Shown here: in pieces, positions 7,425-11,317 of the stretch
How positions within the stretch are numbered: position 1 is the first letter of the stretch
Layout of the letters: each line of letters begins with the position of its first letter
Position numbers and translations under genes: made by a program
The notes under the pieces: model-generated
Told to the model about the DNA's origin: nothing
Databases searched by the model: none
What the model saw: the letters and a program-made list of their open reading frames with translations, nothing else
Virus record (IMG/VR): IMGVR_UViG_3300007722_000106
Span: 1 to 25,180 of that record
DNA: 25,180 nucleotides
DNA from: a virus
Strand: one strand, 5' to 3'

Positions 7425-8048
7425 ATGGCAACAGACAGCGTAATTAATCGCTTTTCAAGCGTAGCTACCGATCCGCTTCGCTCGTTTCGGTTCTATGCAG
7501 AGTTCCTTACCCCACAACAGGGCGGAACAGTAAATTCAAAAATCACTACTGGTTTTACTGGTGGTTTTACTCAGATCTCTGGTCTTGGTATTAACACTGC
7601 AAGCATCGCTTATCGCGAAGGTGGCTACAACACCACTATTCACCAAGTACCAGGCATGACTACGTTCAACCCAATCTCATTTAACCGTGGGGTTATTTAC
7701 AAGAACGAACAAGCCATCAACTGGATGAAGCATTTATTTGCTGCGGCAGCTGGAGACGGAATTGCCCTAGGCAGTAACGACTTCCGTTGTGATATCAAGA
7801 TTTACGTCTTGGATCACCCAGCAGCATCAAACGCAACTGCTACACCCACTGGTGAAGGTGGATCAAACACACCAAAGATGGGATTCCATGTACACAATGC
7901 TTGGATTTCAACTTTGAACTACTCAGACCTTGATGCTGGTGGAAACAACCTTATGGTTGAAACTATGGGCGTTGTACACGAAGGTCTCTCTGTGTTCTAT
8001 ACTCAGGGCAGTGGAGCTACTCCGTACGCCCCGCTAGTAACCACGTAA
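7425..8048 (+). CDS. Tail tube protein (T4 gp19-like)
   Basis: A 207-residue protein with AAGGAG upstream. Conserved tube features are visible: DPLRSFRFYAEF at ~17-28, a GFTQISGLG segment at ~48-56 (gp19 family F..v.GL.), YREGG followed by HQVPGMTTFNPISFNRGVI (tube family R.lPG...y..itl.RG), and a C-terminal NDFRCDIKIYVLDHP then AWISTLNYSDLDAGGNNLMVETMGVVHEGL, the usual P.......a.....e.l.l.hegl. It forms the inner tube. Sheath-then-tube order is standard for contractile tails. Confidence 0.95.
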   Translation: MATDSVINRFSSVATDPLRSFRFYAEFLTPQQGGTVNSKITTGFTGGFTQISGLGINTASIAYREGGYNTTIHQVPGMTTFNPISFNRGVIYKNEQAINWMKHLFAAAAGDGIALGSNDFRCDIKIYVLDHPAASNATATPTGEGGSNTPKMGFHVHNAWISTLNYSDLDAGGNNLMVETMGVVHEGLSVFYTQGSGATPYAPLVTT

Positions 8049-8071: not shown

Positions 8072-8869
8072 GTGACCGAGCAAATGCTCTCTGATCCACA
8101 ATCTTTAGCACAAGCCGCTAAACAATTTGCAGCCGAGCCCGTGGTACAAGTTATCACTCAGGCGCCGTCTGATACTGAGGTCGTCCTTCCCGGAGGATTT
8201 ATTAACCGGGAAGGCGCCTTAGTTAAGTACGCAGAAGTACGTGAACTAAACGGTGCGGACGAGGAAGCAATTGCTCGTTCTGGAAACACTGGTCGTGCAC
8301 TAAACACGATGCTACAACGAGGACTTGTAACACTTGGTATGGAGTCTACGTCTAAAGAAGACCTAGGTACTCTTCTCTCAGGAGACCGAGACGCAATCCT
8401 TATTGGAATTCGTAGAGCAACATTTGGTAAAAGCATTGAGTTTTCAGGCGCTTGCCCTAGTTGTTCAGCAGAACAAACACTTGTTTTAGATTTAGATACT
8501 GACATTCCAATCGTAACTTTGGATGACCCTATAGAAGATCGACTATGGGAATACACCTCAAAGTTGGGCACTGTAATTGTTGGTTTACCGACTGGTCTTA
8601 CACAACGAAGACTGCTTGAAAACTCTGAAAAAACAGCATCTGAATTAAACACAATTTTGTTGTCTGGGTGTGTAGCATCTATTAATGGAAGCCCTTCTAT
8701 GGGCGCTCCTTCAGTACTAAAACTTAGTTGGAAAGACCGTGAAATACTCGTTCAACAAATTCTAGAACGTAACCCAGGCCCACGCCTTGGGGAGGTGAAG
8801 AAGGCTTGCGAGGCATGTGGTGAGGATATTCCTATGCCATTGACCTTAGTATCGTTGTTTCGCGTATAA
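8072..8869 (+). CDS. Tail/baseplate assembly chaperone, T4 gp26/gp51-type, zero-frame product
   Basis: A 265-residue protein with GTG start and AAGGAG upstream. It resembles the T4-type baseplate assembly family: LPGGFINREG...VRELNGADEEAIARSG near residues 40-72 and a helical RRATFGKSIEFSG segment. Two CxxC pairs are visible, C128-P-S-C131 and C246-E-A-C249, likely forming one zinc ribbon. It lies between tube and tape measure, the place of tail assembly chaperones, and its 3' end carries a shift-prone UUU CGC from which a downstream frame can be fused. The gene is thus probably expressed as a short and a long form, as in lambda G/GT. Confidence 0.8.
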   Translation: MTEQMLSDPQSLAQAAKQFAAEPVVQVITQAPSDTEVVLPGGFINREGALVKYAEVRELNGADEEAIARSGNTGRALNTMLQRGLVTLGMESTSKEDLGTLLSGDRDAILIGIRRATFGKSIEFSGACPSCSAEQTLVLDLDTDIPIVTLDDPIEDRLWEYTSKLGTVIVGLPTGLTQRRLLENSEKTASELNTILLSGCVASINGSPSMGAPSVLKLSWKDREILVQQILERNPGPRLGEVKKACEACGEDIPMPLTLVSLFRV

Positions 8870-9008
8870 GACTGAGGACTACGTAAATCTTTTGGACCAA
8901 TTTGAAGCATTAACTCGCGCATTTACAGGGTGGACTTTGACGGATATCCGATCATTGTCATTTCGTGAACGCAAAAATTGGATTGAAAGATCTGGGCGTA
9001 GGAGGTAA
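8072..9008 (+). CDS. Long form of tail assembly chaperone by programmed +1 frameshift (join 8072-8860, 8862-9008)
   Basis: After the zero-frame stop at 8867-8869 there is an open frame from 8850 to TAA 9006-9008 in the +1 register. If the P-site tRNA-Phe on UUU (8858-8860) slips onto UUC (8859-8861), the product continues F-A-Y-K-T-E-D-Y-V-N for 48 residues to IERSGRRR, giving about 311 residues. The tail includes LLDQFEALTRAFTGW and LTDIRSLSFRERKNWIE, a pattern typical of the second ORF of tail chaperones (a leucine-rich pair then L/SxRERxNWxE). The UUU CGC motif is the same type as the influenza PA-X UUU CGU site. An independent TTG start at 8892 behind GAGGA is a weaker alternative. Shift direction and efficiency are inferred. 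Confidence 0.68.
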
Positions 9009-9010
9009 CC

Positions 9011-11317
9011 ATGGCTAAAGATACCGCATCATCGATGGGTACTGGCGGTAGCGGCGGCATTTTTAGCCGTAAAACCGAGCTTGTTGCTGACCTCACCTCT
9101 GCTTTTAAAACTTTAAACCAAGAACTTGAAAAAACTAAAAAACTTTCTGAAGATATATCTAAAAATTTAAAAGGCGCTTTTCCAGCCAGTGGTTCAGGTA
9201 ATTTACTAGGCTCAAGTTTTGGCACGTCTACTGGAACTAAAAATACTGACGAAAACAACGGCACTGGCGGGGGCGGTGGGGGACCTAAAAACTTTGCTTT
9301 AGGTGCTTTAAAGTTTGTACTTCAAGCTGGTGCATTAGCAATGCAGGCGCTGCCTTCAGTGCAAGAAGCGTTTGAGCAAGATTTACTTCGTTCTCGCTTT
9401 GGGTTTTTTGGTGGTAAAAACGCTAACGCAACTCAAATGCAAATGGCTCGTCAAGGAACAACTACAGATCCTTTAGACGCCGCTCGCGCATCAATGATCG
9501 GCGCAACCCAAGGCTTAATGCCTGGGTTAAAAAACTTTAGCAGTATTGCGTCAAGCGCCGCAACGGTTTCTAACCTTATGCCCGGCGTTGGCGTATCTGG
9601 CGGTATGCAAGCAATGGGTGCATTAAACCAGGGTAAAAACGTAAATATGCTTCGTATGATTGGCATTAACGTTCGTGGGGCTGACGGATTACAGCGTGGG
9701 TTCGAAGACATCGCTAACGACCTGTGGAAAAGCATTAACTCACAAAAAACTGGGTCAGCTAAAATTTCTAAAGAAGACTTGTCCATGTCTTTGCAGCCGG
9801 GTAACGCTCTTGCTTCTATGATGGATCAATATTTTGGTAATGACCCCGTTCTTAGACAAGGTGTTATTTCGGCTTTGTACCAAAAGGCTGGTGGAGGATC
9901 TTTTACAAAAGAATCCCTTAAACAGGCTGGTGCAACTACTGGCGCTGTTGAAAGTATGAGCGATAGAAATGCTGCCTCTTTAAATGTTAATCAAGCGCTT
10001 GCTCCATCTGTTCTTACTGGTTTTGAAAAAGCAAACGAACTTTTGGCTGCAGCAAGCGACAAACTTGCTGATGCTGCGCGAAGTGCTGGAATAATTGGAG
10101 ACATAATTCGAGCCGCAGCAGCAACTAAAGGTTTTACAGATACAGTTGCAAGTTCTGGAAACGGTTCTGGATCTGGGGCTATGGGAATGTTAGGTAGCCT
10201 TGGTGGAACTGCCCTTGGAAGTTTCTTTGGAAGTAAAGGCGTAAAAGGCGCAACTAATATGTTTAAAGGTGGGCCTAAATCTTTCGTTAGTAAGGCTAAA
10301 GGTTTTGGCAGTAAAATTGGGATGAAAGGAGGTCGCGCTGCCCTTGCCGCGCTTACTTACGCAGGGCTAGAAAAAGCACAAAAATATTTAAATGAAAATG
10401 CAGATGTCCCAGACTGGGTAAGAACGAGTGCAAATATAGCCTTTGACGCAGGTCAAGGAGCCGCAACAGGTTTTATTGCTGCAGGTCCTGGTGGTGCAGT
10501 TGTTGGAACTGGCGTAGGAATAGCTGGTTCAATAATGAATCCTTATGGTGAAGGAGAAGAATACGGTGAAGGTGGCGGAAGCGATGATGTAGCCACAGCC
10601 GCTAGGGGGATGATTTATCCGTTATCTGGAAGACCTCCTATAACAAGTGCGTTTGGTAAAGTTCGTCACCTTACATTTAACAACGGACAGCGAAGCCCTT
10701 CTTATGGAAAACCTCACGGTGGCATTGACTTCGGTGTTCCTGAGGGAACTCCTGTTTACGCCGTAACTGATGGCGTTGTAGATGCTACTAATTTTGATGC
10801 ACCGGGTTTTGGAAATTACATTAAAACTTTAAACTCAGATGGTACTGAAAACTTTTTTGGTCACTTAAGCCGTAAGTTGGTTGAAGGTGGAGCAAGAGTC
10901 AAAGCTGGTGACATCGTAGGTTATAGCGGAAACACTGGTTCATCTACGGGTCCACACTTACACTTTGAAGTACGTAAAGATGCAAACAAACTAGACCCTA
11001 TGGCGTACTTGTCTGGCGCTGAAGCCAACTCTTTGACTGCTGGTGCCATACCGCCTTCTTCTGGAAATAACCTTACTTTAAGAAGAGGCGCAGGCGATCT
11101 TATTATGCAACCTATGGGAGGCGAAGGCTTAACCCCAGCCCCAGTAAATGGAATGTTTAACCGAGGTTCCGATTCACCACAAACAATTAATTATGGTGGA
11201 GTTACAATTACGTTTAACATGCCAGAAAAATCTGCTGGAGATGTTAAAGCAATTGCTGCAGAAGTAAAGCGTGTTTTATCAAACGACAGTATTCGTGAAA
11301 AGGCGGTAAATAAATAA
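9011..11317 (+). CDS. Tape measure protein with C-terminal M23 peptidase domain
   Basis: A 768-residue protein with AGGAGG just upstream. Residues ~25-52 form a short coiled coil, then a Gly-rich linker (~78-94). The middle is Ala/Gly-rich with hydrophobic stretches (~100-130, ~355-510), typical of tape measures. Residues ~533-665 are an M23 (LytM-type) metallopeptidase domain: H569-GGI-D573, then GHLS (H618), then H649-L-H651-F-E with the STGPHLHFEV context. All zinc ligands expected for an active enzyme are present (H569, D573, H651, plus H618/H649 catalytic). It sets tail length and, after release, could cut host peptidoglycan. The C-terminus (~735-768) is an amphipathic helix that may bind the baseplate. 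Confidence 0.92.
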   Translation: MAKDTASSMGTGGSGGIFSRKTELVADLTSAFKTLNQELEKTKKLSEDISKNLKGAFPASGSGNLLGSSFGTSTGTKNTDENNGTGGGGGGPKNFALGALKFVLQAGALAMQALPSVQEAFEQDLLRSRFGFFGGKNANATQMQMARQGTTTDPLDAARASMIGATQGLMPGLKNFSSIASSAATVSNLMPGVGVSGGMQAMGALNQGKNVNMLRMIGINVRGADGLQRGFEDIANDLWKSINSQKTGSAKISKEDLSMSLQPGNALASMMDQYFGNDPVLRQGVISALYQKAGGGSFTKESLKQAGATTGAVESMSDRNAASLNVNQALAPSVLTGFEKANELLAAASDKLADAARSAGIIGDIIRAAAATKGFTDTVASSGNGSGSGAMGMLGSLGGTALGSFFGSKGVKGATNMFKGGPKSFVSKAKGFGSKIGMKGGRAALAALTYAGLEKAQKYLNENADVPDWVRTSANIAFDAGQGAATGFIAAGPGGAVVGTGVGIAGSIMNPYGEGEEYGEGGGSDDVATAARGMIYPLSGRPPITSAFGKVRHLTFNNGQRSPSYGKPHGGIDFGVPEGTPVYAVTDGVVDATNFDAPGFGNYIKTLNSDGTENFFGHLSRKLVEGGARVKAGDIVGYSGNTGSSTGPHLHFEVRKDANKLDPMAYLSGAEANSLTAGAIPPSSGNNLTLRRGAGDLIMQPMGGEGLTPAPVNGMFNRGSDSPQTINYGGVTITFNMPEKSAGDVKAIAAEVKRVLSNDSIREKAVNK

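Follow-up and report, generated by a model that had tools for sequence, protein, structure and literature searches.

A tail chaperone gene of the T4 gp26 family, found in a 25,180-base stretch of viral DNA analysed here over its whole length (hereafter the window), very probably contains a +1 programmed frameshift at a UUU_CGN site, through which a 265-residue G protein and a rarer 311-residue G-T fusion would be made. We put the probability of this reading at roughly 0.88. It is built on features read from the sequence, namely two overlapping frames, an invariant site, selection acting in the +1 frame only, the absence of a separate start, and a position between the tail tube and tape measure genes. 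Relatives were drawn from viral contigs at 52-100% identity, together with Streptomyces-type relatives. We use “freshwater clade” as a label for the closest relatives of the window and not as a statement about habitat; its 40 representatives share <90% nucleotide identity with one another, and the 89 distinct tails mentioned below come from two clades, that of the window itself and that of the Streptomyces phages. The features discussed are the following:

7425 to 8048, + strand: tail tube gene, directly upstream of the chaperone gene (PF06841 Phage_T4_gp19, E 1.2e-21)
8072 to 8869, + strand: frame-0 gene of the putative G-type chaperone, T4 gp26 family, 265 aa, GTG start
8771 to 8815, + strand: element inside this gene, conserved at the RNA level and with reduced synonymous variation, holding GGGGAGGTGA (8789-8798)
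8855 to 8863, + strand: predicted +1 shift site UUG_UUU_CGC, with UUU C in 89/89 distinct tails
8867 to 8869, + strand: frame-0 stop TAA, two codons (CGC GTA) after UUU, located here in 40/40 freshwater-clade representatives
8862 to 9008, + strand: +1-frame extension of 48 aa plus stop, completing the predicted 311-aa G-T fusion
9011 to 11317, + strand: tape measure gene, directly downstream (PF01551, E 9.4e-28, plus tape-measure PHROG matches)

The window carries contractile-phage genes for sheath, tube, tape measure, and baseplate. In it, the chaperone gene follows the gp19-like gene (7425-8048) and precedes the tape measure gene (9011-11317), as is characteristic of G/GT-type genes. Based on profile similarity, the 8072-8869 product belongs to the T4_baseplate/gp26 family PF12322, with a match above the curated cutoff (E 5.2e-8, 33.3 bits vs a cutoff of 24.5), and it also matches phrog_150 (baseplate hub). 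The two parts of the protein, frame-0 product and extension, were modelled separately. For the frame-0 AlphaFold model (pLDDT 88), the top PDB match was the HK97 tail assembly chaperone 2ob9, with a Foldseek probability of 0.89 but an E-value of 0.39; the Z-score of 2ob9 was 6.5 and that of the next entry 4.5, in a range (<8) that can be reached by chance, so that the model is suggestive of an HK97 chaperone fold. Viral models named T4-like hub assembly proteins matched the frame-0 model strongly. The role of tail chaperone, which a preliminary description of this DNA had assigned to the gene, is thus supported by position and by T4 gp26 family membership, and weakly by fold. The neighboring tape measure protein (9011-11317) includes an M23 peptidase domain at residues 568-663, likely used for cell wall penetration. 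Elsewhere in the window, two adjoining genes at 321-2222 contain collagen-like GPTGPTG repeats, the second one with an Mtd_N domain (PF18454) at its start, and probably encode receptor-binding or fibre proteins. No tRNA genes were found in the window, and no Rfam match was obtained at 8600-9100.

The frame-0 gene ends with GTA TCG TTG TTT CGC GTA TAA, in which TTT occupies 8858-8860. The +1 frame is open across 8850-9008, with a stop (TAG, 8847-8849) before it and another (TAA, 9006-9008) at its end, and it reads FAYKTEDYVNLLDQFEALTRAFTGWTLTDIRSLSFRERKNWIERSGRRR from the slip codon onward. Slippage from UUU to UUC would join 263 residues, counted through the Phe, to 48 additional ones for a total of 311, and direct reading of the sequence bears out the preliminary description in its coordinates and in the junction peptide that it predicts (VSLFAYK). 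The site at 8858-8863 is by sequence of the UUU_CGN class, i.e., an in-frame UUU followed by CGN with the product in the +1 frame. It does not belong to the -1 heptamer (X XXY YYZ) class, since no such heptamer is present in the junction TTGTTTCGCGTATAA and the extension lies in +1. The SD sequence of the tape measure gene (AGGAGG, 9000-9005) overlaps the end of the extension.

Across the 40 representatives, the extension had a pN/pS of 0.30 when read in +1, compared to 1.67 for frame 0 and 0.95 for the third frame, which indicates purifying selection in the +1 frame only; the downstream frame in +1 register that had been proposed for this DNA is therefore real and coding. Its conserved core can be written GWT-L-D-I--LS-RER-NW, and its AlphaFold model (pLDDT 86) comprises a helix, a short helix, and a helix.

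Across the 89 distinct tails, the junction displayed UUU C in 89/89, as part of CGN in 87 and CAG in 2, with the frame-0 stop shortly after, although these conservation counts come from sequences related by descent and carry no formal probability. Loss of UUU C in relatives that keep both frames, which had been named as an outcome that would speak against the proposed site, was thus not seen in the window's own and Streptomyces-phage clades; it does occur in some distant SP-15-type phages, in which the extension is still in +1. In the freshwater clade, a near-invariant TTG TTT CG was identified (TTG in 39 of the 40 representatives and ATG in the other, TTT in 40/40, CG in 40/40), while the N of CGN and the base following it vary freely. 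At the site, Phe is encoded by TTT in all freshwater loci (40/40) and all Streptomyces-type loci (12/12), compared to 37/40 and only 4/12, respectively, for another invariant Phe of this gene used as a control. Of the 40 freshwater representatives, 39 have UUG as the E-site codon, even though UUG makes up 14% of Leu codons; Streptomyces-type loci have CUG or CUA. Among the latter are Streptomyces phages BRock and pSt2308 (CTG TTT CGC) and LuckySocke (CTG TTT CAG), all three with a homologous +1 extension that has been annotated apart or left unannotated.

From these patterns we infer slippage at UUU, its efficiency, and the role of each product, with the roles of G and T taken by analogy to lambda G/GT. 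Most ribosomes would read UUU CGC GUA UAA and terminate, yielding the 265-aa G protein. A minority would pause while tRNA-Phe occupies UUU in the P site and the A site holds CGC, and the anticodon GAA would then slip one base forward, from UUU at 8858-8860 to a fully paired UUC at 8859-8861, after which reading in +1 would add 48 residues and produce the 311-aa G-T fusion from the same start. By analogy, the binding partner of the G part would be the tape measure protein encoded by the next gene, and recruitment of tail tube subunits would fall to the helical T extension. No 3' stimulatory RNA structure was found downstream of the site (mean z 0.14, empty consensus fold), and the efficiency of frameshifting may thus be low.

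Several alternatives were weighed against slippage at UUU. The one that fares best, while still improbable, is a +1 shift elsewhere within the six-codon overlap, for instance at the GUA preceding UAA: the overlap (8850-8869) permits other places, and UAA could act as a slow A-site codon. However, full re-pairing is available only at UUU (to UUC). The codon next to the stop is also variable (CUA, AUA, UUA, GUA, CUC), and in Streptomyces-type phages the frame-0 stop is located one codon further on with UUU C unchanged. We consider it very unlikely that the extension represents a separate small protein, coupled to the upstream gene and translated from the TTG at 8892 or from some other start. This TTG is present in the window, and small ORFs are annotated apart in BRock and LuckySocke, yet the TTG lacks an SD, the conserved core is not preceded by any ATG, GTG, or TTG in 27/40 representatives, and none of the start candidates in the 40 has an SD. 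A separate start would also leave UUU C free to vary at codon position 3, where it is invariant. The extension is thus an overlapping second frame under selection without a start of its own, as in G/GT-type genes, and the originally suggested +1 frameshift at UUU CGC holds as a predicted site, given UUU C in 89/89 tails and no separate start. Similarly slim is the likelihood that the frame is restored by polymerase (transcriptional) slippage or by a -2 shift, the latter leading to the same frame as +1. Polymerase slippage is possible on the six or seven Us (TTTTTTTGG) found in a second, Mel-JY01-type clade, but the window has only three Us, slippage would not require the CG that is conserved after UUU, and for a -2 shift no re-pairing is available on the overlap codons. 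Finally, a decaying remnant or sequencing artefact without function is hardly credible for an arrangement repeated in many independent assemblies and isolated phages, and with the low +1 pN/pS reported above.

The frame-0 gene also includes a conserved element upstream of the predicted +1 shift site. Synonymous variation decreased to 0.33 of expectation at codons -30 to -21, compared to 0.81-0.98 in segments covering codons -260 to -31, and the sharp loss extends over codons -30 to -15 before UUU (8771-8815), i.e., about 43-87 nt upstream of the site. Within this region, GGGGAGGUGA contains an 8-base complement of the 16S anti-SD. The SD-like sequence at 8789-8798 ends 60 nt upstream of the site, at which the A-site codon is CGC, and a prfB-like action on the same ribosome is excluded because this sequence is too far upstream. 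A short GCCU/AGGC stem in the element is invariant, hence covariation is uninformative on its pairing, and the element was not found in the Mel-JY01-type clade. An internal ORF as an explanation of the upstream GGAGGUGA element was considered and rejected, as downstream NTG triplets lead to short frames for which conservation was not apparent by eye. Region 8771-8815 is a possible stimulator or regulatory element.

More distant members of the gp26 family display a broader set of candidate sites. SP-15-type viruses, whose proteins are about 20-25% identical to that of the window and for which the SP-15 relative matches PF12322 at 100 bits, mostly encode UUU_CGN and +1 extensions; exceptions in which the extension is still in +1 are SP-15 (UUU_CAC), locus L213 (UUU_CAU), and LIS04 (UUU_AGU). 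The junction of Streptococcus phage GXN1 reads TTC TTT CGT. Loci L207 and L210 (UUU_AAU_CCC_A), as well as L212 and L216 (UUC_AAU_CCC_A, with CCC_AGU), also keep the extension in +1, with CCC_A as a plausible alternative +1 site in all four. A large and mainly environmental sister clade with a +1 extension (L223-L302), related to Microcystis phage Mel-JY01 and Flavobacterium phage immuto, carries UUU_UUU_UGG_CCU in nearly all cases, with CUU_UUU_UGG, UUU_UUU_UAC, and, in immuto, UUU_CUU_UGG as variants. The +1 extension in this clade has a pN/pS of 0.24 (23 representatives) and the motif GNGGF..DVYNMPVW.R.FYI, and its U run may represent a second type of +1 site, polymerase slippage being a live alternative there. 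In Agrobacterium phage Atu_ph07, the gp26-family gene has a -1 extension behind a U_UUU_UUC heptamer (L185, about 2770-2786), which points to a change of shift direction within the family. In a gp26-family gene of uncultured phage LR756511 (L186, about 2000-2900), the frame-0 tail is longer and is followed by a possible extension in the third (-1) frame. No cyanophage isolates were brought up by tblastn. Fused-protein profiles of the three main clades align through the extension, with E-values, each for one pairwise comparison, of 5e-20, 4e-46, and 5e-14.

G-T frameshifting was described in a 2016 review as conserved in long-tailed phages “except T4” (PMC5009743). T4 gp26 has been presented as a hub assembly chaperone (PMC3004832), and hub or tape-measure chaperone roles have already been stated for gp26 and gp51 (PMC3004832; Konradin annotation). 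Both proteins match PF12322 (gp26 8.8e-64, gp51 3.9e-52), and the two families align with each other (hhalign E 8e-20), which identifies gp26 and gp51 as paralogues at the sequence level. PF12322 covers residues 1-201 of gp51 (L303, 4480-5229) and leaves 48 residues (202-249), while on phrog_150 gp26 ends at profile position 235 and gp51 at 280 of 282. The C-terminal end of gp51 resembles the extension GWTLTDIRSLSFRERKNWIERSGRR, and a combined profile aligns through this region (E 3.2e-7). The match of the extension alone to gp51 is moderate (E 1.5e-4, probability 51%, score 24.2 vs ≤13.8 for null blocks), and that of the single T4 gp51 sequence to the clades is weak by hhalign, with stronger results from the family alignment and the combined profile. 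No hidden extension was seen after the stop of T4 gp26. The paralogy of gp26 and gp51, and an extension-like C-terminus of ~48 extra residues in gp51 alone, suggest that T4 has split G/G-T into two genes of the same Pfam family; in contrast to the single gene of the window, the two are separate, and no frameshift was seen in T4. A precedent for G and GT on paralogous genes is found in gp143/gp144 of phage 0305phi8-36 (PMC2147016), likened here to the T4 pair for the two-gene arrangement, gp26-family membership aside. On balance, we lean towards PF12322 representing frameshift-made G/G-T chaperones across several contractile-phage lineages, mostly by +1 (UUU_CGN or UUU_U) and at least once by -1, with T4 as a split version in which 26 would be G and 51 would be G plus T. 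In the literature covered, mostly papers outside subscription, we found neither a previous description of frameshifting in the gp26 family nor a statement of gp26/gp51 as a split G/G-T pair.

In long-tailed phages, frameshifting of the tail chaperone gene is textbook knowledge, and is reported to be -1 in most of them and missing from T4. As in lambda G/GT, two products of the window's gene would come from one start, the long form by frameshift, beside a tape measure gene. However, lambda-type shifts are -1 on a heptamer while the window's would be +1 on UUU_CGN, and its G protein, a T4 gp26 relative with paired-cysteine motifs, is larger than lambda G. The same shift site and slip are known from influenza A PA-X and plant amalgaviruses, for which a P-site slip from UUU to UUC has been proposed at UUU_CGN and all four CGN codons occur (PMC5052127); the N of CGN varies there as it does here, but these are eukaryotic RNA viruses and other genes, whereas the window is from a bacterial phage with a conserved E-site codon. 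UUU-CGC has been proposed for the tail chaperones of HF1-group haloviruses (PMC7230728), a published case of six genomes from one group, and for HSTV-2 (PMC5009743), and we read it in two HF1-group genomes (L165, L182). Thus, this type of site in a tail chaperone is not new, and the earlier impression that a UUU CGN +1 site is unusual in a contractile phage does not stand: it has this precedent, and is the rule within the present family. HF1 and HSTV-2 chaperones differ in being short, unrelated-looking proteins from viruses of archaeal hosts; the HSTV-2 chaperone had no Pfam match, and its single sequence no significant hhalign match to the three clades. What is new here is the gp26 family, the breadth of conservation, and the link to T4.

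Taken together, bacterial phages here show strict conservation of a type of +1 site for which most other descriptions come from eukaryotic RNA viruses, and the large sister clade adds a second +1 type to UUU_CGN. If the proposed reading of gp26 and gp51 is true, it becomes possible to test what these two long-known T4 genes do, and a large number of genes annotated as “baseplate hub” would have to be joined to the small “hypothetical” ORFs adjoining them.
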